Positions 6,918 to 62,265 of a stretch of DNA of 64,000 nucleotides are shown in pieces. The notes under the pieces were generated by a model that was given only the letters and a program-made list of their open reading frames with translations, did not search any database and was not told the DNA's origin. Every line of letters begins with the position of its first letter. Position 1 is the stretch's first letter. Origin of the DNA: Bacteroidota bacterium (GTDB lineage: Bacteria; Bacteroidota; Bacteroidia; Cytophagales; Cyclobacteriaceae); contig JAFEAM010000008.1 in the NCBI GenBank assembly GCA_018266395.1, forward strand, positions 4,461 to 68,460. Direction: 5' to 3'. A program made the position numbers and the translations under genes.

Positions 6918-7907
6918 ATGTCAATATTAGCGTTTCAAATGCCGGAGAAGGTGGTTATGGAGAAGTCGGATGACTTCCATGGATTCTTCACCTTCAAACC
7001 GCTGGAAAAAGGATATGGCGTAACCATCGGCAATGCCCTTCGCAGAATCCTGCTCTCTTCACTTGAGGGATATGCGATCACCGGTATTAAGATCCCCGGC
7101 GTATTGCACGAATTTTCTACCATCGAAGGAGTTGTTGAAGATGTTGCTGAAATCATTCTTAACCTCAAGCAGGTTCGTTTTCGCAAGCTGTCAGACAATT
7201 TTGACAACAAGATCACGGTAAGCATCAAGAAGCAGAAGCATTTCAAGGCCGGAGATATCGCAAAGTTTACATCCGCCTTTGAAATCCTGAATCCTGATCA
7301 TGTAATCGCAACCCTGGACGAGACCGCTCACTTTGAGGTTGAACTGACAATTGAAAAGGGCAGAGGCTACCTTCCCGCTGAGGAAAACAAGCCCAATGAG
7401 CAGGTATTCGGATTCATTCCGATTGATGCAATTTTCACACCTATCAAGAACGTGAGATTCAGCGTCGAGAACACCCGCGTGGAGCAGCGTACGGATTATG
7501 AGAAGCTTTTGCTTGAAATCGAGACAGACGGCTCGATCCATCCTGAAAAGGCCCTCGAAGGCGCAGCTTTCATCCTGATACAGCACTTCCGCCTCTTCTC
7601 CGACAAATCGATCGAACTCGAAACCGGTGCAGACAGCGAAGTAGAACAGGTGGATGAAGAGATGCTGCATATGCGCAAGCTCCTCAAGACTCCTCTGCAT
7701 GATCTCGACCTGTCTGTACGGGCTTACAACTGCCTGAAGGCAGCTGACGTGAAGACGTTGGGTGATCTGGTTCAGTTGGAAATTTCTGACATGATGAAAT
7801 TCAGGAACTTCGGTAAGAAGTCCCTGGCCGAGTTGGAGCAACTGGTTTCTGAAAAGAACCTGACCTTCGGCATGGACCTTGCAAAATATAAACTGGAAGA
7901 AGACTAA
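6918..7907 (+). CDS. rpoA: DNA-directed RNA polymerase subunit alpha
   Basis: The alpha subunit dimerises to nucleate core RNA polymerase, and its C-terminal domain binds UP elements and activators. The 329 residues show the N-terminal assembly domain ([26 protein letters not shown] near residue 27) and the alpha-CTD helix-hairpin-helix region with [22 protein letters not shown] and [16 protein letters not shown] near the end. Length equals that of E. coli RpoA. Its stop overlaps the rplQ start by one base (TAATG). Confidence 0.98.
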
Positions 7908-8428
7908 TGAGACACGGTAAGAAAGATAATCACCTGGGCCGTACCAAGGCTCACCGGGAGGCAATGTTGTCCAACATGGCTTCGTCCCTCCTGATCCATA
8001 AGCGGATCACCACCACGGTTGCCAAGGCAAAGGAATTAAGGAAGTTCGTTGAGCCCCTGATCACAAGGGCCAAGACGGATACCATGCACTCACGCCGTAT
8101 GGCATTCTCCTATCTCCAGAACAAGGATTCCATCAAGGCCCTTTTCGGTGAAGTTGCCACCCGCACGTCAGAGCGTCCGGGCGGTTACACCAGGATTATT
8201 AAGTTGGGCGATGTTCGTCTCGGCGACGCAGCCGAAATGTGCATGATGGAGCTGGTAGACTTCAACGACCTCTATAAGAAGGACGGTACCAAGAAGGCCA
8301 AAACCCGCCGGAGCCGCAAAGGCAAGAAGTCGGAAGGTGCTCCCGAGGCCGCATCAGCAGAGGCAGAATCAAAGGCCGAACAGCCATCCAAGGAAGAAAA
8401 GAAGCCTGAAGCGAAGAAAAAGAAGTAA
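7907..8428 (+). CDS. rplQ: 50S ribosomal protein L17 with charged C-terminal extension
   Basis: L17 lies near the peptide exit tunnel. The first ~120 residues are canonical ([21 protein letters not shown], then [18 protein letters not shown] and [20 protein letters not shown]). The last ~50 are a low-complexity Lys/Glu/Ala tail ending KKPEAKKKK, giving 173 residues against about 127 in E. coli. Such tails are common in L17 of Bacteroidota. The gene ends the cluster: a clear terminator follows 22 bases after its stop. Confidence 0.97.
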
Positions 8429-8450
8429 TAGATGACTTCAATCGATAGCA

Positions 8451-8484
8451 AGAAGGGACCTGTCAAAAACGGGTCCCTTTTTTC
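8451..8484 (+). terminator. Intrinsic terminator after rplQ
   Basis: AAGGGACC (8453-8460) pairs with GGTCCCTT (8472-8479) around an 11-base loop and runs into six T residues (8478-8483). This is a standard Rho-independent terminator closing the ribosomal operon, just before the carA promoter region. Confidence 0.85.
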
Positions 8485-8517
8485 ATTTGCGTCATAGCGC
8501 GAACCCCTTCTCCGATG

Positions 8518-8525
8518 TATTTTTG
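8518..8525 (+). promoter_or_regulatory. Candidate -7 element for carA
   Basis: TATTTTTG fits TAnnTTTG exactly. No TTG is found at the expected -33 distance, so only half of the promoter is supported. The predicted transcript start near 8529-8531 lies between the upstream terminator and the TTG start chosen for carA, and this placement helped decide that start. Confidence 0.45.
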
Positions 8526-8546
8526 TTAAACCAACCACTTATTCCC

Positions 8547-9659
8547 TTGAACCAGAAAGCTTACCTCTTGCTGCAAGACGGCCTGCTCGTAGAGGGTACC
8601 GCCATTGGCAAATTAGGTACCACGGGCGGCGAGATTTGCTTTAATACCGGTATGACCGGATACCAGGAAATCTACACTGATCCTTCATACTTCGGTCAGA
8701 TTATAGTGAATACCACGGCTCATATCGGAAACTATGGGACTATGCCGGAGGAGCAGGAATCGGATAACCCGAAGATCAGCGGACTGGTGGTGAATGAGTT
8801 CTCTGATGACTTCAGTCGTAAGGCATCGAGAGAGAGCCTTCAGAAATATCTGGAGAAGCACAATATCGTCGGCATCGCAGATGTAGATACCCGGATGCTG
8901 GTGCGCCACATCAGGAATAAAGGTGCGCAGAATGCAATCATATCTTCTGAATTGCAGCCCGAACAACTGAGGGCTCAACTCATGAAAGTGCCGGATATGA
9001 ACGGCCTTGAGCTTTCTTCTGTGGTGAGTACAAAAGCAGCCTACACGGCGGGTGATCCCAATGCGTCGGTGCGGATCGCTGCACTGGATGTTGGCATCAA
9101 GCGGAACATTGTTCGCTGCCTTGTGGATCGTGGCTGCTATGTAAAAGTATTTCCGGCCAAGACCACTTTTGCACAAATGGAGGAATTCAATCCTGACGGC
9201 TATTTTATCTCCAATGGACCGGGTGATCCATCTGTGATGGATTATGCGATCAAAACCGTCAAGGACATTCTTGCTTCGGAAAAGCCCGTGTTTGGAATTT
9301 GCCTTGGCAATCAGTTGCTGGCACTCGCCTGTGGATTATCCACCTACAAGATGCACCATGGACACCGCGGCCTCAATCACCCGGTGAAGAATCTGGTTAC
9401 GGGGCTGGGTGAAATGACTTCCCAGAATCATGGGTTTGCCGTCAGTGAAAAGGATATTGAGAAGAACCCTGATGTTGAGGTGACGCACCTGCACCTGAAT
9501 GATCAAACGATCATGGGCATCAGGTTGAAAAGCAAAAAGGCCTTTTCAGTGCAATACCACCCGGAAGCCTCTCCCGGACCACATGACTCACGCTATCTCT
9601 TTGACGACTTTGTGGCTATGGTGAAGGAAAGCCAGACACAAGCCGTCGCAGCAAAATAA
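8547..9659 (+). CDS. carA: Carbamoyl-phosphate synthase small (glutaminase) subunit
   Basis: CarA hydrolyses glutamine and channels ammonia to CarB, which makes carbamoyl phosphate for arginine and pyrimidines using bicarbonate. The N-terminal CPSase small-chain domain covers about residues 1-140 and the class I amidotransferase domain about 175-360. Visible motifs are SNGPGDPS, the nucleophile in GICLGNQ (Cys252 with this start) and YHPEASPGP (His338). The frame is open back to 8487, but that lies in the terminator. The TTG at 8547 gives MNQKAYLLLQDG and 370 residues, near the family norm, and lies 17 bases after the predicted transcript start. carB is not in the window. Confidence 0.95.
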   Translation: MNQKAYLLLQDGLLVEGTAIGKLGTTGGEICFNTGMTGYQEIYTDPSYFGQIIVNTTAHIGNYGTMPEEQESDNPKISGLVVNEFSDDFSRKASRESLQKYLEKHNIVGIADVDTRMLVRHIRNKGAQNAIISSELQPEQLRAQLMKVPDMNGLELSSVVSTKAAYTAGDPNASVRIAALDVGIKRNIVRCLVDRGCYVKVFPAKTTFAQMEEFNPDGYFISNGPGDPSVMDYAIKTVKDILASEKPVFGICLGNQLLALACGLSTYKMHHGHRGLNHPVKNLVTGLGEMTSQNHGFAVSEKDIEKNPDVEVTHLHLNDQTIMGIRLKSKKAFSVQYHPEASPGPHDSRYLFDDFVAMVKESQTQAVAAK

Positions 9660-19832: not shown

Positions 19833-21395
19833 ATGAGCAAACCGCACGATCATCAGAATGAGAAATTTACCGAACTGAACAGGAAGAATCAGGAGGCCCT
19901 GCTGGGAGGAGGTGTCAAGAGGATCGAACAACAGCACTCAAGAGGCAAACTGACCGCCAGGGAGCGGATTCACTTATTGCTTGATGAAGGGACTTTTGAG
20001 GAATTGGGCAAGTTCGTCATGCACCGGGCCCGGGATTTCGGCCTGGATAAGGAGCACTACCTGGGAGACGGCGTGGTAACCGGGTATGGCAGGATCAATG
20101 GCAGATTGGTATATGTTTTTTCTCAGGACTTCACCGTGTTTGGTGGATCCCTTTCTGAAACCCATGCAGAGAAGATTGTGAAGATTATGGACCTTGCCAT
20201 GAAGAATGGCGCGCCCCTGATCGGTCTTAATGACAGCGGTGGTGCCCGCATTCAGGAAGGCGTTGTATCTCTTGGTGGGTATGCAGACATCTTCTACAGG
20301 AATGTAATGGCGTCCGGTGTTGTGCCCCAGATATCAGCCATCATGGGCCCTTGTGCGGGAGGCGCCGTATACTCTCCGGCCATGACCGATTTTATTTTCA
20401 TGGTGGAGAACACTTCATTCATGTTTGTTACAGGTCCAAACGTTGTGAAAACGGTGACCCATGAAAATGTAACGGCAGAAGAATTGGGCGGTGCCATTAC
20501 ACACAGCACCAAAAGCGGTGTAACACATTTTGCGTGCGCCAATGAAGCTGAATGCATCAGGTATATCAAACAGTTGCTGAGCTACATTCCGCAGAACTGT
20601 GAAGATGAAGCGCCCAGAATTCCCTATACCCCAAGCAACGAAAGGCGACCGGCCCTGGATTCGATTGTACCCGAAAACCCGAATCAACCGTATGACATGC
20701 GAGATGTAATTCTGGGTGTCGTGGATGAAGGAAGTTTCTTTGAGGTGCATAAGAATTTTGCTGAGAATATTGTGGTGGGATTTGCCCGTTTGGCTGGCAG
20801 AAGCATTGGTATAGTGGGCAACCAACCTGCGGCCCTGGCAGGCGTTCTCGACATTCACTCCAGCGTGAAGGGAGCCCGCTTTGTCCGTTTCTGCGACAGT
20901 TTCAATATTCCTTTGCTTGTACTTGAAGATGTCCCCGGGTTCCTTCCCGGGACCGACCAGGAATGGAATGCGATCATCACCAACGGTGCAAAACTCCTTT
21001 ACGCCTTCTCTGAGGCAACGGTGCCTCGTGTCACCGTCATTACCCGCAAGGCGTACGGCGGTGCGTATGATGTGATGAACTCCAAACACATTGGGGCTGA
21101 CATGAACTATGCGTGGCCAACGGCCGAAATTGCGGTGATGGGCGCCAAGGGTGCTTCGGAAATTATTTTCAAGAAGGAGATATCGGAAGCCACTGATCCC
21201 GAAGCCAAACTGAATGAGAAAGTGGACGAGTACACCCGGAAATTTGCCAATCCGTACCGCGCTGCACACCGCGGCTATATCGACGAAGTCATTTTCCCGG
21301 ATCAAACCAGGGAAAAGCTCATCACGGCGTTCGCAATGCTGGAAAATAAAGTAGCTGTTCTTCCAAAGAAGAAGCACGGCAATATTCCGCTCTAA
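19833..21395 (+). CDS. pccB: Acyl-CoA carboxylase carboxyltransferase beta subunit (propionyl-CoA carboxylase type)
   Basis: The 520-residue protein carries both carboxyltransferase halves of the crotonase fold. It would transfer carboxyl from carboxybiotin to an acyl-CoA such as propionyl-CoA, giving methylmalonyl-CoA. Motifs are [46 protein letters not shown] and [16 protein letters not shown] in the first half, and [20 protein letters not shown] and [15 protein letters not shown] in the second. The biotin carboxylase (alpha) subunit is not in the window. The assignment to propionyl-CoA over other acyl-CoAs rests on overall resemblance. Confidence 0.88.
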
Positions 21396-33430: not shown

Positions 33431-33450
33431 GTTATTCATTGATACACTGC

Positions 33451-35076
33451 ATGGATCTGGAATTCAACCGGAACGAGGATCTTTTCAAGCAGCTCTGTTT
33501 CCAGCTGGAAGCCAGAGCCGCCAAAATCCGTTTGGGCGGCGGTGAGAAAAAGATTGATGAGCAGCATCAGAAAGGCAAGCTTACGGCAAGGGAGCGAATT
33601 AATTATCTGATTGATAAGGAGTCTGCGTTTCTTGAATTCGGTCTTTTTGCAGCTGATGGCATGTATCGCGAACAAGGTGGCTGTCCCGGCGCCGGGGTCG
33701 TGACGGGCATTGGTCGCGTGAGTGGCCGACTCTGTGTCATCGTCGCCAATGACGCCACGGTCAAAGCGGGTGCCTGGTTTCCGATGACGGCAAAGAAGAA
33801 CCTCCGTGCCCAGGAAGTGGCCATTGAAAACCGCCTGCCCATTATCTATCTGGTAGACAGTGCAGGAGTCTTCCTTCCCATGCAGGATGAAATCTTTCCC
33901 GACAAGGAACACTTCGGAAGACAATTCCGCAATAATGCTGTGATGTCTTCCCGTGGAATCGTGCAGATTGCAGCGATCATGGGTAGCTGCGTGGCAGGTG
34001 GCGCTTACCTTCCCATCATGTCCGATGAAGCGATGATAGTGGACAAAACCGGTTCGATCTTTTTGGCAGGCTCATACCTCGTGAAGGCCGCCATCGGTGA
34101 GGAGGTGGACAATGAAACATTGGGAGGTGCCACTACTCACTGTGAGATTTCCGGCGTAACCGACAACAAGTTTCCCAACGATCAGGCCTGCCTGGATTAC
34201 ATTCGCTCGGTCGTGGATAAAATTGGCAGGCCAACACTAACCGGATTTGATCGCATCAAACCAGCCACTCCCTCAGCCAAACAGGAAGAGATTTATGGAA
34301 TTGTGCCCGCTGATCGCAGCAAGCCATACGACACGATGGAGATCATCAGAAGGCTGGTTGACAACTCTGAGTTTACAGAGTATAAGGCATTGTATGGGAA
34401 GAGTCTCATTTGTGGCTACGCCCGCATCGACGGATGGGCTGTTGGACTGGTGGCCAACCAGCGCAAGGTTGTAAAGACCAAGAAGGGCGAGATGCAAATG
34501 GGGGGAGTAATTTATTCCGACGCTGCTGACAAGGCTGCAAGGTTTATCATGAATTGTAACCAAAGAAAGATACCCCTGGTTTTCCTCCAGGATGTGAGCG
34601 GGTTCATGGTAGGAAGCAAGGCAGAACAGGGCGGCATCATCAAAGACGGGGCGAAAATGGTGAATGCTGTTGCCAACTCAACGGTACCCAAGTTTACAGT
34701 CATTATTGGTAACTCTTATGGCGCCGGCAACTATGCCATGTGCGGCAAGGCCTATGACCCCCGGTTGATTGTTGCCTGGCCGTCAGCGCAAATCGCCGTG
34801 ATGAGCGGGGCCTCAGCGGCGAAAACACTGCTGCAGATCCGCGTGAGCGCCCTGAAAGCACAGGGGAAGACCATTGAAAAAGAAGAAGAGACACTGCTAC
34901 TAAAGGAAATTACCGATCGTTATAATGAACAACTGAGTCCCTATTATGCCGCTGCGCGTTTGTGGGTGGACGATATTATTGATCCGCTGGAAACGCGCAG
35001 TTGGATATCCACAGGAATCGAGGCGGCCAGTCATGCGCCTGTGGAGCGGTTTAATGTTGGCGTGATACAAACCTGA
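33451..35076 (+). CDS. Acyl-CoA carboxylase carboxyltransferase beta subunit (methylcrotonyl-CoA carboxylase type)
   Basis: A 541-residue second carboxyltransferase, distinct from the one at 19833. It shows [63 protein letters not shown] and, in the second half, LQDVSGFMVGSKAEQGGIIKDGAKM and GNSYGAGNYAMCGKAYDPR. The LPMQDEIFPDKEHFGRQF segment is the hallmark of methylcrotonyl-CoA or geranyl-CoA carboxylases in leucine breakdown. ATG 33451 (MDLEFNRNED) is chosen over the non-ATG start 12 bases upstream. The alpha subunit is not in the window. The stop overlaps the next start (TGATG). Confidence 0.88.
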   Translation: MDLEFNRNEDLFKQLCFQLEARAAKIRLGGGEKKIDEQHQKGKLTARERINYLIDKESAFLEFGLFAADGMYREQGGCPGAGVVTGIGRVSGRLCVIVANDATVKAGAWFPMTAKKNLRAQEVAIENRLPIIYLVDSAGVFLPMQDEIFPDKEHFGRQFRNNAVMSSRGIVQIAAIMGSCVAGGAYLPIMSDEAMIVDKTGSIFLAGSYLVKAAIGEEVDNETLGGATTHCEISGVTDNKFPNDQACLDYIRSVVDKIGRPTLTGFDRIKPATPSAKQEEIYGIVPADRSKPYDTMEIIRRLVDNSEFTEYKALYGKSLICGYARIDGWAVGLVANQRKVVKTKKGEMQMGGVIYSDAADKAARFIMNCNQRKIPLVFLQDVSGFMVGSKAEQGGIIKDGAKMVNAVANSTVPKFTVIIGNSYGAGNYAMCGKAYDPRLIVAWPSAQIAVMSGASAAKTLLQIRVSALKAQGKTIEKEEETLLLKEITDRYNEQLSPYYAAARLWVDDIIDPLETRSWISTGIEAASHAPVERFNVGVIQT

Positions 35077-56432: not shown

Positions 56433-57170
56433 TCAGGTGTTCTTCTCTATCTGATTAAATCGGGAATTATAGATCAGGTAAACTACCGCAGCCATCACAA
56501 TTATCATCCCTGCATAACTGAACATTGCGATCAAAGCGTAATCGACCTGCCTTTTCAATACGATTCCATAGAATCCCCAAACCAAGGCAAGAGCAAGAAA
56601 AGGGTTTTGAAGTCGGAAGATGGTGACTGCACCAACCCCTGCACCGATAATAATCATGATGATGGTCCAGGTTTGTTGACTGAACCCGAATCCGTCCCAT
56701 GACAGGGTAACCAACAAGGCGGTGGCATTGGCAATCGTGGCAAGGCAGATCCAACCCAGGTAGACTCCAAAGGCCAATCGCAACAACCATCCAGCCTTCC
56801 CCTGAAGTGTTTTATTGATACTTACGAGTGTGGCCAGCAATGCTACCATGACGATCAATGAAAGGACAACTTTTTCATAATGCCACACCACTATCCACAA
56901 AGCGTTCAACATGAAGTTGGCCGTTACAGCCCAGCCCAGTGAGCTCATTTGATCCCTGTACCGGGCAAAAAATTGTACTGCCATCACTGTTAGCAACAAC
57001 AGGTAAATGACACCCCAAATAGAAAAAGTGATACCCGCTGGCACAAACAGGTTAGGGTATTGATCCGACAACTCGCCGGTCGTCTTGCCGTTGATCGGCA
57101 AAGCATTGGCAAGTGCGTTCATTACGATCATGACTGTAAATGCGAATAGATTGGAAATCCGGTATTTCAT
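56433..57170 (-). CDS. Tryptophan-rich sensory (TspO/MBR-like) membrane protein
   Basis: A 245-residue integral membrane protein with about seven hydrophobic segments. NLFVPAGITFSIWGVIYLLLL and the Trp-containing helices (ALWIVVWHYEKV, GVYLGWICLATIANATALLVTL) fit TspO-related proteins of Bacteroidota, which are longer than the ~160-residue classical TspO. TspO binds porphyrins and responds to oxidative stress in other bacteria; whether this copy does so is unknown. It overlaps the DUF1295 gene by 4 bases. Confidence 0.78.
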   Translation of the reverse strand: MKYRISNLFAFTVMIVMNALANALPINGKTTGELSDQYPNLFVPAGITFSIWGVIYLLLLTVMAVQFFARYRDQMSSLGWAVTANFMLNALWIVVWHYEKVVLSLIVMVALLATLVSINKTLQGKAGWLLRLAFGVYLGWICLATIANATALLVTLSWDGFGFSQQTWTIIMIIIGAGVGAVTIFRLQNPFLALALVWGFYGIVLKRQVDYALIAMFSYAGMIIVMAAVVYLIYNSRFNQIEKNT

Positions 57171-57964
57171 GCGTCGTTGGATTTTGGAAACCAGGGAAAG
57201 AATGCCGGCGTCTGTTTTATATAGTTCTCGTACTCCGGCTTGGTCCTCTTGAGACTCTTCTCAAGGAGGGCTACTCCTGACACTTTCAGCAGGAGCACAT
57301 TCATAAGCGCGGCGCTCAGCAATGACCACCAATGTCCGGCGGCGATGCCGAACGTTGCAAAGCTCCACCATATCAGTGCATCGCCAAAGTAATTGGGATG
57401 CCTTGTGTACTTCCATAACCCTTCTCGCAGCACCTTGCCTTTGTTGGAAGGGTTTGATCTGAATTGCATCAATTGATAATCTCCACCTGCCTCAAATATG
57501 AATCCGGTTGCCCATAACACAAGTGCAAAACCATCAAGAAAAGAGAAAGCAATATTGGCTTGGGGGATCTGTGCCATGAGTAAAGGCGCCGAAATAAGCC
57601 ACAATAATATTCCCTGCAAAAGGAAAACCTGGAAGAAGCTGAACCACCAATAGTTTCGCTCACCGTAACGTTTCCTGAATTCTGTGTAACGATAATCCTC
57701 GCCCTTACCGGAATTGCGGATGCCTATGTGAACGGAAAGACGTATGCCCCACACAACAGTGAGAACCAGCACGAGAAGTCCCCGCCAGTGATAGGGCTCT
57801 GCAAGGTTATAGTAATAGAAGCAGGCCACTACAAATCCGAGTCCCCAGAACATATCCACAATGCTTACGTTCCGCAGTGGAATGCTGATGATCCAAACCA
57901 CCGCAAATAACCCCAGGGTGATGGCCAGACCAGTAAGGTAAATCTCTCCCATTACATGATGCAT
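57167..57964 (-). CDS. DUF1295 family membrane reductase-like protein
   Basis: A 265-residue protein with about six transmembrane helices of the DUF1295 / steroid 5-alpha-reductase type. The C-terminal signature LREGLWKYTRHPNYFGDALIWWS and the final YENYIKQTPAFFPWFP are conserved. Related enzymes use NADPH to reduce double bonds in lipids or catalyse methyl transfer; the substrate here is unknown. ATG 57964 and ATG 57952 are both possible. It is coupled to the TspO-like gene downstream. Confidence 0.85.
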   Translation of the reverse strand: MHHVMGEIYLTGLAITLGLFAVVWIISIPLRNVSIVDMFWGLGFVVACFYYYNLAEPYHWRGLLVLVLTVVWGIRLSVHIGIRNSGKGEDYRYTEFRKRYGERNYWWFSFFQVFLLQGILLWLISAPLLMAQIPQANIAFSFLDGFALVLWATGFIFEAGGDYQLMQFRSNPSNKGKVLREGLWKYTRHPNYFGDALIWWSFATFGIAAGHWWSLLSAALMNVLLLKVSGVALLEKSLKRTKPEYENYIKQTPAFFPWFPKSNDA

Positions 57965-58032: not shown

Positions 58033-58869
58033 TTAAGGATTGCAATGAACGCAATACATGGGCTCCTCAAATTCCTTCCGATCGGGTCGTGGTACCACCG
58101 ACCGATTACCGCATTCTTGACAAGAATACTCAAGTGATCGGATGGAAGCTGTGGGTAAGTGGCACAACCGGCAAGGAAGCCCTGTAATGGTTCGGCTGAC
58201 TCCAAAGCCGGGGGCACTGCAGATAGGGCACCTGGAATTTACAAGTTCAATAAGTTTGCGACCAGCTGCTTCAATCACTTTCATTCTTGTCGGATTGAAG
58301 CAGGCACGCATGTCCGTTTCCGCATAGACCGAGCCACTGGATTTCAGGCAACTATCAAAGGCTGCCCTGAACAATCTCCAATCAGTAATGCCTTTTTCCA
58401 AAAAGGTGAAATTGTCGGTACTGGGCCGGATGATAAGACCGTGAGACGGAAAGCCAATAGCGGCGGCAAAGTCTTCCGCCTCTTTCCAGCTGGCGAGCGG
58501 CCTGCCATCAAAATTGGTATCGGTGGAAATTTCACTTGCAATATACTCGCGACCAGAGTCCTTATCGGTGAGAAGCAACAGCTCTTCATCAACCGGCAGA
58601 AAGGGCACATCCGGATGACTTCCGAAGGAGCCTTCGCTCGCGAGTGCAAGGGTAGCGTGGCTGATCCTGAGTGCCTCGGCACATTTCTTTCTCGCCGCCT
58701 CAAGGGCGCCATCGATCCGTTGTACTTCTCCAGTGAAGGTGCCAAACTTGTCCGTGTCCAGATGGTTAGGCACTTCGGTGATCACGCCCCAGCACTTTTC
58801 CAACAGAGGCGAAAGCATCTTTTCTTTCCCATGTTGGGTGGCAATGACCAGTCTCCGCCCGGTCCACAT
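58033..58869 (-). CDS. DUF6671 zinc-ribbon protein in the bicarbonate operon
   Basis: A 278-residue protein. The N-terminal domain begins RRLVIATQHGKEKMLSPLLE and contains RIDGALEAARKKCAEAL and LALASEGSFGSHPDVPFLPVDEELLL. The C-terminal ~70 residues hold four CxxC pairs (CPIC, CRLC, CQEC, CVHC) forming two likely zinc ribbons. I place it in DUF6671, a family of unknown function. TTG 58881 opens the frame, but ATG 58869 is a better start. It is the last gene of the operon, 8 bases after sbtB, which suggests a link to inorganic carbon use. Confidence 0.75.
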   Translation of the reverse strand: MWTGRRLVIATQHGKEKMLSPLLEKCWGVITEVPNHLDTDKFGTFTGEVQRIDGALEAARKKCAEALRISHATLALASEGSFGSHPDVPFLPVDEELLLLTDKDSGREYIASEISTDTNFDGRPLASWKEAEDFAAAIGFPSHGLIIRPSTDNFTFLEKGITDWRLFRAAFDSCLKSSGSVYAETDMRACFNPTRMKVIEAAGRKLIELVNSRCPICSAPGFGVSRTITGLPCRLCHLPTASIRSLEYSCQECGNRSVVPRPDRKEFEEPMYCVHCNP

Positions 58870-58877
58870 CCCGGCTT

Positions 58878-59171
58878 TCAACTTTGGTACACTTCTGACA
58901 CGTGTACGGGATAATGATAGGCTATCATCGCGTACCGACCAAAGTACTTCTGTTTGACATGTTGAAGGATGGCTTCAGTTGCGTCGGGGTTCACAAGAAT
59001 TTCAATCTTCACATTCTCTCCATCCCACGGATTGTCGCGCAAATGTCGCGGGCTTCTTCCCATGACCTTTGAAAGGGTGTAGCCCTTCGCTCCAAGTTCA
59101 ACGATCTCTTTTTCCAGCGCTGCGGTCAGCGTTTCATCCGCAATAAGAGTAAGCATTTGCAACGGCTCCAT
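58878..59171 (-). CDS. SbtB-like PII family regulator of bicarbonate uptake
   Basis: A 97-residue PII-fold protein. The T-loop region KVMGRSPRHLRDNPWDGENVK (about residues 36-56) ends in the WDGENVKIE pattern typical of SbtB. SbtB binds adenine nucleotides, including cAMP, and controls SbtA. This copy lacks the short cysteine-containing C-terminal loop of some cyanobacterial SbtB proteins and ends at YPVHVSEVYQS. It lies 5 bases after the permease gene, which strongly supports a functional pair. Confidence 0.85.
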   Translation of the reverse strand: MEPLQMLTLIADETLTAALEKEIVELGAKGYTLSKVMGRSPRHLRDNPWDGENVKIEILVNPDATEAILQHVKQKYFGRYAMIAYHYPVHVSEVYQS

Positions 59172-59176
59172 AATTC

Positions 59177-60133
59177 TTACTTAACTATGATTTGTGCGAG
59201 ATAATGATAGAGCGGCAGCCCAAAAATGATGTTGAAAGGGAAAGTGATGGCAAGGGCCGCTGTGAGATAGTAGGAAGGGTTGGCGGCAGGCAGTGCCACA
59301 CGGCATGCTGCAGGTGCTGCAATGTAAGATGCGCTCGCAGCAAGCACGCCGAGTATGGTAGCGCCGCCAAGGCTCAATCCCGCGAGATGTCCTAAATAGA
59401 TGCCAAGGGTGGCATGAAACACCGGGAAAATAATGCCAAATCCTGCAAGGAAGAGTCCACTGGTGCGCAAATCGGATAGTTTTCTGCCTGCCATGAGACC
59501 TGCTTCGAGCAGGAACAGTGTAAGGATTCCCTTGAAGGGCGTGTCAAAAAGTGGCGCAACTTGTTCCCACCCTTCTTTTCCGATGACATACCCGATGACA
59601 AGAAAACCGATCAGAAGTATACTGCTCTTTCCTGAGACCAGTTCAATGGCAACTTCCCTCAGGTTCGATGTCCCTTCCTCTCCGCTGTTTTGTATCCTTG
59701 CAATGGAGATCGCCACCAGGATGGCGGGAATTTCCATGATTGCGAGTAAGGTGGGCATGAATCCTTCATAGCTCACCCCGAGCATATCGTGGTATACCAG
59801 TGCGGCGCTGAAGGTAACAGCGGAAACTGATCCATAGTGCGCAGCCAGCGCAGCGGAATTATTTACATCCATCTTTCCAGCCTTCCGCATCAGCCAGTAA
59901 GTCCAGAGGGGGATGATGCAGCAGAGCGCGATGGCGGCCATGGCCGGAAATTGTACTTCCTGGAAGGAGGCAATGGACAGTTTGTAGCCTCCTTTTATTC
60001 CGATGGCCACCAGAAGATAGATGGTCAGCGACTGATAAAGCCCGTCTGGAAATTTCAAGTCGCTCCTGAGGCGGGAGGCCAGAACGCCAAGGACAAAGGC
60101 GAGAACCATAGGTGAGAGAATTCCTGTTATCAT
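59177..60133 (-). CDS. SbtA-like sodium-dependent bicarbonate permease
   Basis: A 318-residue inner-membrane permease with about ten transmembrane helices. It shows SPMVLAFVLGVLASRLRSDLKFPDGLYQSLTIYLLVAIGIKGG at the N-terminus, AALAAHYGSVSAVTFSAALVY, and the repeat-like AASASYIAAPAACRVALPAANPSYYL near the C-terminus, all conserved in the SbtA family. SbtA imports HCO3- with Na+. The adjacent sbtB-like gene and carbonic anhydrase support this function. Substrate specificity in this host is inferred. Confidence 0.88.
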   Translation of the reverse strand: MITGILSPMVLAFVLGVLASRLRSDLKFPDGLYQSLTIYLLVAIGIKGGYKLSIASFQEVQFPAMAAIALCCIIPLWTYWLMRKAGKMDVNNSAALAAHYGSVSAVTFSAALVYHDMLGVSYEGFMPTLLAIMEIPAILVAISIARIQNSGEEGTSNLREVAIELVSGKSSILLIGFLVIGYVIGKEGWEQVAPLFDTPFKGILTLFLLEAGLMAGRKLSDLRTSGLFLAGFGIIFPVFHATLGIYLGHLAGLSLGGATILGVLAASASYIAAPAACRVALPAANPSYYLTAALAITFPFNIIFGLPLYHYLAQIIVK

Positions 60134-60149
60134 ATGGTGTTTTGGTTTT

Positions 60150-60815
60150 CTATTCTAAGAATTCAACCTGGCCTGTACTCAGATGGTAAACAGCCCCAAT
60201 GATCCGGATGGAATTTTCTTTCACCCGCTTGCTCAACAAAGGCTCCAGACTTTTCAGTTGCTCCACCTGCATGCGAACATTTTCCCGGATGGATTCGTCC
60301 AAAAGGTGTTCGGGGTTATTTTTTTTTGCTTTCTCAACAGCCGGTTTGATCGCGTTAATCAGTGTCACGATATGGCCAGGCACTTCCGGAAGGTTTACCG
60401 CTGCGGAAACTGCACCGCATTGGGTATGCCCAAGAACTACAATGAGTTTTGTTCCGAGTATTTCTTCTCCAAATTCGATGCTGCCCCACGAAGCGTATGT
60501 GGAGACCTGACCCGCTGTGCGTACAATGAAGAGGTCCCCAAGCCCCTGATCAAAAATGATCTCATTGGGTACCCTGGAGTCGGAACAGCCAATGATAGTT
60601 GCAAAGGGGTTCTGACCTTTTGCAACTTCATGTAACCGGCTGCTGTCCTGCCGTGGCCTTGCTGAATGACCTTCCATAAAGCGCTTATTGCCTTCTTTGA
60701 GCCATTTGAGGGCGACGTCTGGTGAAATCTGCCTGGCTCCCTGTCCATTACAGGTAATGACCTGAAACACTGCCCAGAGCGCAATTATTGAATAGAGGAG
60801 TGCTATTTTTTTCAT
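60150..60815 (-). CDS. Exported beta-class carbonic anhydrase
   Basis: A 221-residue beta-carbonic anhydrase with an N-terminal signal region (residues 1-25; Cys22 could be a lipoprotein site, VITCN). Zinc ligands and the catalytic dyad are visible: ATIIGCSDSRVP (Cys77, Asp79, Arg81) and VVLGHTQCGAVSAAV (His130, Cys133). It interconverts CO2 and bicarbonate, here probably in the periplasm or on its inner face. It lies 16 bases before sbtA and overlaps the upstream membrane gene by 4 bases. Confidence 0.92.
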   Translation of the reverse strand: MKKIALLYSIIALWAVFQVITCNGQGARQISPDVALKWLKEGNKRFMEGHSARPRQDSSRLHEVAKGQNPFATIIGCSDSRVPNEIIFDQGLGDLFIVRTAGQVSTYASWGSIEFGEEILGTKLIVVLGHTQCGAVSAAVNLPEVPGHIVTLINAIKPAVEKAKKNNPEHLLDESIRENVRMQVEQLKSLEPLLSKRVKENSIRIIGAVYHLSTGQVEFLE

Positions 60816-61255
60816 AGATGATTACGATTTGAGGAATGCTCTCTGACATATGACACGCGGCCTCTTACAAGAAGATAGGTGAGAATGCACGCCGCTATGA
60901 TGATGAGTGTTTCCACCAACATTTCGGCGGGATCCCGTCTAAACCCTTCATCAACTCCGTTGGATGGGGATATTAAGCCAGCCGTGAGCAGGCATGCCGC
61001 AAGCAGGAGTTGCTTCAGAGAATTCCATGCTGCCGTTCTGTCGATTGAGTCAAAAAATAGCCGGATTCTCGAGATAACCTGACTGGCGCTACCCACGAGA
61101 TAGGTAAAGATCAGTTCGCCGAATCCAAGGGCCAGAAGCACGATGAGCGCATCAATGAAGATTTCCTGTGTCAGCGTACTTGCAGGAGCGTACCATTTCG
61201 AAAGAACCAGCAGGCCGAGGAGTGAAAAGGAAAGAATTCTGGGTATCAAATTCAT
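60812..61255 (-). CDS. Four-helix membrane protein, first gene of the bicarbonate operon
   Basis: A 147-residue protein with about four transmembrane helices (LSFSLLGLLVLSKWYA, IDALIVLLALGFGELIFTYLVG, LLLAACLLTAGLIS, LIIIAACILTYLLV) and a basic cytoplasmic loop (SRIRLFFDSIDRTAAWNSLK). No family is recognised. ATG 61255 (MNLIPRILSF) is chosen; the longer frame from 61330 overlaps the regulator's promoter. It is translationally coupled to the carbonic anhydrase (ATGA overlap), so a role in inorganic-carbon handling is a reasonable inference. Confidence 0.7.
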   Translation of the reverse strand: MNLIPRILSFSLLGLLVLSKWYAPASTLTQEIFIDALIVLLALGFGELIFTYLVGSASQVISRIRLFFDSIDRTAAWNSLKQLLLAACLLTAGLISPSNGVDEGFRRDPAEMLVETLIIIAACILTYLLVRGRVSYVREHSSNRNHL

Positions 61256-61272
61256 GGTGCTGTTTTTTTGCG

Positions 61273-61280
61273 CAAAGATG
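61273..61280 (-). promoter_or_regulatory. Weak -7-like element for the bicarbonate operon
   Basis: On the minus strand this reads CATCTTTG, one base off TAnnTTTG, 17 bases before the ATG at 61255. No good -33 TTG is present, as expected for an activator-dependent promoter. The LysR-type palindrome would lie at roughly -45 to -60 from its start point. Confidence 0.3.
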
Positions 61281-61313
61281 GGCTTGCCTTTGCATTCATT
61301 TTTATTCATATTT

Positions 61314-61326
61314 TGTATAGAATACA
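61314..61326. promoter_or_regulatory. LysR-type T-N11-A operator
   Basis: TGTATAGAATACA is a perfect inverted repeat (TGTAT-AGA-ATACA) with exactly the T-N11-A form bound by LysR proteins. It lies in the 83-base gap between the regulator and the divergent bicarbonate operon, 13 bases before the regulator ATG. Autoregulation and activation of the operon are inferred from its position. Confidence 0.65.
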
Positions 61327-61338
61327 TCACGATTTGTT

Positions 61339-62265
61339 ATGAATTACACGCTTAACCAGTTGCAGATCTTCCTCAAGGTTTCAGAGAAAAGAAGCATCAC
61401 CAAGGCTGCCGAGGAATTGCATCTCACGCAGCCTGCCGTATCCAATCAGCTCAAAAACTTCCAGGACCAGTTCGACATACCTTTGACCGAGTTGGTGGGG
61501 CGAAGGATCTTCATCACCGACTTCGGGATGGAAATAGCCAAGTCGGCTGAAAGAATACTCAATGAGGTGAACCTGATCGATGCGAAGACCCACGACTTCA
61601 AAGGGAACCTGACCGGGAGATTAAGATTATCCGTGGTCTCCACGGGCAAATATGTCATGCCCTATTTCCTTTCAAACTTCATGAATGAAAACAGGGGGGT
61701 GGAATTGGTAATGGATGTAACCAACAAGCAAATGGTAATTCAAAGCCTCGAGGAGAATACAGTCGACTTTGCCCTTGTTTCAATCCTTCCGAAGTCACTA
61801 AAAGTGGAAAAGGTGGACCTTCTCCAAAACAAGTTGTACCTGGTGGGAAACCAATCACATGAATTCAAGAAGAACCAGTATAAGAAACAACTTTTCAGGG
61901 AACTCCCTCTGATCTACCGTGAGCCGGGATCCGGTACCCGACAGGCTATGGAATCATTCATCAAGCGGAATCATGTTTCCGTGGTAAAGAAAATGGAACT
62001 GACCTCCAACGAGGCGGTCAAACAGGCCGTACTGGCAGGCTTGGGCTATTCCATAATGCCCCTGATCGGAATACGTCACGAGTTGCACAGTGCGGAATTG
62101 CAGATCATACCCGCGCAGGGCCTGCCCATCAAAACCATGTGGAGCCTGATCTGGACCAAAGGAAAGAAGCATGCACCGGTGGCCGAGGCCTTTCTCGAGT
62201 ACCTCAGACGGGACAAAATGAAAATAGTAAAGGACAATTTCAGTTGGTACGAAGATTACATCTGA
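61339..62265 (+). CDS. LysR family transcriptional regulator
   Basis: A 308-residue LysR-type regulator. The N-terminal winged helix-turn-helix is clear (LNQLQIFLKVSEKRSITKAAEELHLTQPAVSNQLKNFQ, residues 5-42). The periplasmic-binding-like effector domain follows (LRLSVVSTGKYVMPYFLSNFM onward). The divergent placement with a T-N11-A palindrome is the usual LysR layout. CbbR, CmpR and CcmR are LysR regulators of carbon-uptake genes in autotrophs, so an analogous role is plausible here. The effector is unknown. Confidence 0.9.
   Translation: MNYTLNQLQIFLKVSEKRSITKAAEELHLTQPAVSNQLKNFQDQFDIPLTELVGRRIFITDFGMEIAKSAERILNEVNLIDAKTHDFKGNLTGRLRLSVVSTGKYVMPYFLSNFMNENRGVELVMDVTNKQMVIQSLEENTVDFALVSILPKSLKVEKVDLLQNKLYLVGNQSHEFKKNQYKKQLFRELPLIYREPGSGTRQAMESFIKRNHVSVVKKMELTSNEAVKQAVLAGLGYSIMPLIGIRHELHSAELQIIPAQGLPIKTMWSLIWTKGKKHAPVAEAFLEYLRRDKMKIVKDNFSWYEDYI

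Follow-up and report, generated by a model that had tools for sequence, protein, structure and literature searches.

The window analysed here is a stretch of 64,000 nucleotides from a Bacteroidota bacterium of the family Cyclobacteriaceae, and the subject of this report is a putative bicarbonate uptake operon at positions 58033-62265 together with the divergent LysR gene and the sequence between them. A first-pass annotation had described five packed minus-strand genes divergent from LysR, and reading frames and Pfam searches bore out its coordinates, overlaps and gaps. Adjacent genes overlap by 4 bases at 58878/58881 and 60812/60815, the PII-like gene lies 5 bases from the sbtA (Sbt_1) gene, and 16 bases separate the latter from the carbonic anhydrase gene. 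The parts are as follows.

58033..58881, minus strand: DUF6671 protein, 282 residues (Pfam DUF6671, 244.7 bits)
58878..59171, minus strand: SbtB-like PII protein, 97 residues (Pfam P-II, 45.8 bits)
59177..60133, minus strand: homologue of SbtA-family Na+/bicarbonate symporters, 318 residues (Pfam Sbt_1, 379.5 bits, cut-off 27)
60150..60815, minus strand: exported beta-carbonic anhydrase, 221 residues (Pfam Pro_CA, 135.1 bits)
60812..61255, minus strand: small membrane protein, 147 residues (ATG start at 61255)
61293..61341, no strand: putative LysR operator/promoter, from an alignment of 56 promoters
61339..62265, plus strand: LysR regulator (Pfam LysR domains, 62.6 and 131.7 bits)

The DUF6671, PII-like, Sbt_1, carbonic anhydrase and LysR proteins each scored well over the Pfam cut-off, and the small membrane protein matched no Pfam or NCBIfam family. 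The latter is likely to start at ATG 61255, after a TTTG box, rather than at the mechanically assigned GTG 61330, because that GTG falls within the conserved operator. The carbonic anhydrase carries a CSDSR motif at residue 77 and an HTQCG motif at residue 130, in line with the C-D-S-R / H-x-x-C pattern, and a hydrophobic N terminus (residues 4-22) agrees with its earlier description as exported.

The permease resembles SbtA (Slr1512) of Synechocystis (E 1.6e-27), in which S114, Y140, S324 and S327 have been proposed to contact bicarbonate (PMC8352866). In an alignment read by hand, Ser114 and Ser324 are kept as S104 and S269 of the window protein, for which bicarbonate transport is likely on the basis of sequence. 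The PII-like protein matched the structure chain of TTHA0516 (E 8.2e-18) better than that of SbtB slr1513 (E 1.9e-7). Its T-loop region is 5 residues shorter than that of cyanobacterial SbtB and its C terminus, VSEVYQS, is without the CGPxGC motif, which is itself conserved in only some SbtB homologues (PMC8352866). Adenylate gating by this protein is likewise graded as likely.

The genomic context of DUF6671 was explored by an alignment scan of named genome contigs, which confirmed at least 586 relatives, of which the best 80 loci were kept and their neighbours counted by tblastn (LysR at 45% identity or more). The 80 were chosen for closeness to the query and have near relatives among them, so they cannot be counted as independent events; some are also cut short by a contig end. 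Among these best 80 of at least 586, neighbours were LysR (44 loci), SbtA (42), Sua5 (39), dihydroorotase (36), isocitrate dehydrogenase (25), carbonic anhydrase (5), BioD (3), AceK (1) and SulP (1); 67 held at least one of SbtA, Sua5, dihydroorotase, isocitrate dehydrogenase, carbonic anhydrase and BioD. Representatives were assigned by Pfam and NCBIfam to the threonylcarbamoyl-AMP (TC-AMP) synthase, dihydroorotase, dethiobiotin synthase and NADP isocitrate dehydrogenase families. At 33 of the same 80 loci there is also a small protein of the family termed c7/d5 (~80-100 residues, with a KINFH-type motif; for example at L167:6720-7001 and L119:6459-6704, L and G numbers denoting loci and genomes), mostly encoded immediately before DUF6671, and the members scanned had no Pfam or NCBIfam match. 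The record titles include Flavobacterium, Polaribacter, Psychroflexus, Pedobacter, Arcicella, Adhaeribacter, Algoriphagus, Fibrisoma, Brumimicrobium and Chitinophagaceae; two loci whose titles name other phyla (L153 and L176) were taken for mislabelled bins.

Closer to the window organism, DUF6671 was found in 25 of 96 related genomes (24 over the cut-off) and Sbt_1 in 37, and two kinds of SbtA occur in the same genus. The first, 70-78% identical to the window's, was present at 10 loci, with an SbtB-like gene at nine, carbonic anhydrase at six and LysR at five; the second, ~37-48% identical, often lies near LysR, isocitrate dehydrogenase and c7, and at times DUF6671. A survey for the five-gene order had been suggested as a check on the first-pass annotation; the outcome that would have spoken against it, a lack of joint conservation, was not seen, although the exact order recurs at just one other locus. 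This is L051 of the same genus (G042), where a divergent LysR gene is followed by carbonic anhydrase, SbtA, SbtB and DUF6671. Behind them, at ~7625-8968, lies an Asp-type dihydroorotase gene (VCGLSDDGLY) with one in-frame stop, reflecting either a decaying gene or a sequencing error. Three loci (L052, L053 and L058) have the divergent LysR, carbonic anhydrase, SbtA and SbtB without DUF6671 nearby, and L066 has the divergent LysR, carbonic anhydrase, SbtA, DUF6671 and c7. At L072 and L073 (G035 and G007), a SulP transporter, a diverged carbonic anhydrase (26% identity) and SbtA stand in a row. In a sample of 296 genomes from the phylum, which includes the organism's own genome and was not drawn blind, Sbt_1 was present in 5 of the 7 genomes with full-length DUF6671 versus 64 of the 289 others (Fisher p 0.009).

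Some further observations concern these neighbourhoods. Downstream of DUF6671 in the window, a DUF1295 protein is encoded at 57167-57964 on the minus strand, and a 59% identical gene lies near SbtA-SbtB at L061. At several of the loci L087-L092 an adjoining gene clusters with one that, at L092, encodes a TetR-type protein. A frame matching the C-terminal part of DUF6671 only was found ~1 kb from SbtA in a distant phylum member (G314:C116:141082-143230).

The dihydroorotases of the relatives fall into two kinds. At least two enzymes over the family cut-off were found in 15 of the 20 genomes searched (17 second-copy rows in all), G104 has a linked copy and a second one split between contig ends, and the four single-copy genomes (G111-G114) are those without a dihydroorotase in the cluster. 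All 19 unlinked sequences have Lys in the carboxylated-lysine motif, versus (T/S)DDGLY in its place in all 33 linked copies longer than 420 residues; in a tree to which the own genome's copy was added, one branch (100/99) separates the kinds. The second His of the HxH motif, H179, H234 and D306 are kept throughout both, and the linked enzyme of L126 scored 612.6 bits against an NCBIfam equivalog cut-off of 535. The metal bridge of a lysine-type dihydroorotase depends on CO2 and, because the Asp motif occupies the carboxylated-lysine position, the Asp-type enzyme should be active without CO2. In the type-I dihydroorotase of Aquifex aeolicus, Asp153 stands at the carboxylysine place and the Lys of other enzymes lies slightly upstream (PMC3880350); the linked copies show this same pattern. 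In Flavobacterium sandaracinum, a further dihydroorotase over the cut-off and a second long Sua5 were observed ~3 kb apart outside the DUF6671 cluster (G099:C65:83736-88851).

The window LysR is 54-76% identical to the 55 others in the operator alignment, which were kept at 50% identity or more. Its best NCBIfam profile is CbbR, at 184.3 bits well short of the equivalog cut-off of 450. The 56 anchorable LysR upstream regions, the window's included, align to CATAAAttattTTtATg...AAAtATAAATAAAAATttATg...TTTG; 52 of them have a CATAA...T(T/A)AT palindrome pattern across the LysR start, and 46 have ATAAATA. In the window, a CATAA..ATG element covers the LysR start codon and is followed by ATATGAATAAAAATGAATG and by the TTTG box at 61273-61276. 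A consensus-derived pattern was run on 21 genomes with up to 3 mismatches, giving 15 matches in 12 genomes, and the reversed pattern, used as a control, gave none in any of the 21. Four matches lie outside DUF6671 clusters, where genes were named by eye. Two of these precede unlinked icd in G099 and G105, sister Flavobacterium genomes with no icd in their clusters, and a third, in Polaribacter irgensii (G100), lies between LysR and c7-like plus SbtA-like genes, with DUF6671 and dihydroorotase elsewhere. Among the matches at the clusters themselves, the one at L104 departs from what construction would lead one to expect, in that it precedes icd and adjoins no LysR gene. A looser pattern found one exact site in the own genome, that of the window, and four more with 2 mismatches. 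The shared operator and the divergent arrangement lead us to infer that the LysR protein acts at this operator and controls the genes. The LysR protein CcmR senses 2-oxoglutarate and NADP+ (PMC3401165). By analogy with CcmR, and because isocitrate dehydrogenase makes 2-oxoglutarate, this metabolite is a candidate signal.

Cells need CO2 or bicarbonate for biosynthesis and, to our knowledge, the ways in which non-autotrophs cope with a scarcity of either are known mainly as single uptake systems. The window operon probably belongs, in reduced form, to a Bacteroidota regulon for CO2 limitation: the wide gene set is seen in relatives, and of it the window organism has the uptake part together with DUF6671, the LysR gene and the operator. 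CO2 was taken as the theme because no other theme considered covers all the linked genes; SbtA and carbonic anhydrase handle bicarbonate, BioD uses CO2 and isocitrate dehydrogenase releases it. The recurrent LysR-linked set, in which bicarbonate uptake goes together with CO2-using, CO2-releasing and CO2-dependent enzymes, may represent a hitherto undescribed response of bacteria to low CO2, and no description of such a gene set was found in the literature searched, judged by titles and abstract beginnings.

For regulation, transport and enzyme activity, we infer the following scheme. Scarce CO2 or bicarbonate would switch the operon on, with the LysR protein acting through the shared operator. 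The exported carbonic anhydrase would interconvert CO2 and bicarbonate outside the cell, SbtA would import bicarbonate with Na+, and the PII-like protein would gate SbtA by adenylate state, as in SbtA-SbtB. The position of this regulator in relatives would let it drive enzymes at steps that run short of CO2: isocitrate dehydrogenase would release CO2 and make 2-oxoglutarate, bicarbonate-dependent TC-AMP synthesis by Sua5 would be supported, at times along with CO2-dependent BioD, and the second, Asp-motif dihydroorotase would stay active without CO2. For human YRDC, the bicarbonate Km for TC-AMP is 13 mM (PMC5951830). DUF6671 is the weakest step and is probably a nucleotide-binding protein of the CO2 response, with either isocitrate dehydrogenase as its partner or a nucleotide as its substrate. 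A bolder version is possible rather than probable, namely a dedicated non-cyanobacterial CO2-starvation regulon analogous to zinc-sparing regulons, which would combine a CO2-independent dihydroorotase, a Sua5/BioD boost, CO2 from isocitrate dehydrogenase, SbtA import and DUF6671 as a new nucleotide-dependent enzyme.

The structure of DUF6671 was predicted with a mean local distance difference score (pLDDT) of 92.4 and a template modelling score (pTM) of 0.86. The core is predicted to have an ITPase/HcgB/YjjX-like fold, as in the ITPase/HAM1 superfamily, to which the protein may be remotely related; Foldseek matches to ITPase/HAM1, HcgB and YjjX folds had 11-20% identity with query TM-scores of only 0.25-0.29, and hhalign against 20 HAM1 proteins gave no profile-level support (probability 0.8%, E 0.07). 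Unlike those proteins, DUF6671 has an extra middle part (about residues 96-192), possibly ATP-grasp-lid-like in the model, and a Cys-rich C-terminal end, in which 8 Cys are invariant in a 55-sequence alignment and which presumably forms zinc ribbons.

Several observations weigh against a CO2-limitation regulon. In the window permease, L130 and A272 align with Tyr140 and Ser327 of Slr1512, so that two of the four proposed contacts are changed and bicarbonate transport is no more than likely. In the HxH metal motif of the dihydroorotases, Gln replaces the first His in 19 of 19 unlinked and 31 of 33 linked enzymes; the metal site is therefore unusual, and activity rests on the NCBIfam assignment. 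A long Sua5, in or outside the cluster, plus a shorter family member is present in 20 of the 20 genomes searched, so Sua5 is not a clear extra copy. Of the 80 DUF6671 loci, some of them cut by contig ends, 12 are without any of ten core genes and 13 without any CO2-linked gene. At six same-genus loci (L087-L092), DUF6671 lies between icd and aceK with no SbtA nearby; reading frames give the same row at L086, whose DUF6671 had been removed by the overlap filter of the tblastn count. Few genomes of the phylum sample have DUF6671 (10 of the 296, 7 of them full length), and Sbt_1, present in 69, is commoner. By coordinates, 11 of the 15 operator matches fall at DUF6671 clusters, as expected by construction, and the fourth outside match (G103:C25:20850-20876, L262; 3 mismatches) precedes an SPFH/prohibitin-like gene, named by eye, and is unexplained. 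The pattern had no match in 9 of the 21 genomes, the own genome included; six of these (G000, the own genome, and G096, G098, G102, G108 and G114) have an aligned LysR promoter, which indicates that sites of this family vary more than the pattern allows. The own genome was searched only for DUF6671, Sbt_1, isocitrate dehydrogenase with the bacterial C domain, AceK, dihydroorotase, HAM1 and two operator patterns. It has one dihydroorotase over the cut-off, of Lys type, and gave no match to that isocitrate dehydrogenase, for which the control genomes gave none either; AceK was not matched, with no search made for its other CO2-linked genes.

Rarity of DUF6671 beside the far commoner SbtA, and a window that holds just SbtA, the PII-like protein, carbonic anhydrase, DUF6671 and the membrane protein, would also be expected of an ordinary uptake operon in which SbtA, the PII-like protein and carbonic anhydrase feed carboxylases and the other genes linked in relatives are incidental. 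This we consider unlikely, as the same small gene set, along with a similar LysR and operator, turns up under many different record titles, and the operator also precedes unlinked icd. The first-pass annotation had proposed a bicarbonate module next to a LysR gene that recaptures CO2 or bicarbonate for carboxylases. Its first part stands, given the SbtA-family permease, the SbtB matches and the recurrence of SbtA, carbonic anhydrase and LysR together. The window does encode the two carboxyltransferases it named (19833-21395 and 33439-35076) and the small chain of carbamoyl-phosphate synthase (8487-9659), yet the carboxyltransferases lie ~37 and ~23 kb from the operon with no linkage shown, and recapture for acyl-CoA carboxylases is the less fitting part. 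A response to scarce CO2 fits better because the enzymes linked in relatives are Sua5, dihydroorotase, isocitrate dehydrogenase and, rarely, BioD.

The icd-DUF6671-aceK row of L087-L092 and the sensing of 2-oxoglutarate by CcmR (PMC3401165) would suit a 2-oxoglutarate or nitrogen-balance regulon, in which 2-oxoglutarate would be the signal for isocitrate dehydrogenase, AceK, the PII-like protein and LysR, and bicarbonate would be secondary. Such a regulon does not account for SbtA, carbonic anhydrase, SulP, BioD, Sua5 and the Asp-type dihydroorotase, and appears less likely still.

Zinc-sparing dihydroorotase paralogues are known under Zur, while Sua5, BioD, SbtA and isocitrate dehydrogenase are not known to have any bearing on zinc and the regulator here is a LysR protein with a palindrome of the T-N11-A type. 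A Zur-like paralogue set, in which the Asp-type dihydroorotase of relatives replaces a two-zinc enzyme, is thus very improbable: the A. aeolicus Asp-type enzyme has one zinc, but that of B. anthracis is reported to have two (PMC3880350), and the set holds a zinc carbonic anhydrase and DUF6671 with its invariant Cys.

If the CO2-limitation regulon is real, CO2 would be a limiting nutrient with its own sparing response, comprising a conserved regulon and a carboxylysine-free isoenzyme. DUF6671 would gain a functional context, and the predictions could be tested in Flavobacterium, Algoriphagus and Polaribacter strains.

Among the closest known systems is cyanobacterial SbtA-SbtB (Slr1512/Slr1513), which likewise has an SbtA-family permease adjoining a PII-like gene, and LysR control is known for cyanobacterial carbon uptake (PMC3401165). 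The present system differs in the shorter T-loop region, the missing CGPxGC, the two changed bicarbonate contacts and the linkage to DUF6671 and, in relatives, also to icd, sua5 and the Asp-type dihydroorotase. MpsAB of Staphylococcus aureus similarly comprises genes that a non-autotroph needs for growth at the CO2 level of air, but it is a different gene pair, and the part of the abstract compared mentions no isoenzyme set (PMC6689103). In the CO2-sensitive synthesis of N6-threonylcarbamoyladenosine (t6A) by YRDC, a Sua5/YrdC-type enzyme is limited by bicarbonate as proposed here, whereas that enzyme is human and, in the portion of the report available, comes with no low-CO2 gene cluster (PMC5951830). 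Finally, the A. aeolicus type-I dihydroorotase shares the replacement of the carboxylated lysine by an Asp ligand (PMC3880350), and the linked enzymes described here differ from it in being second copies beside a Lys-type enzyme, in lying in a bicarbonate-linked cluster and in having mostly Gln at the first metal His.

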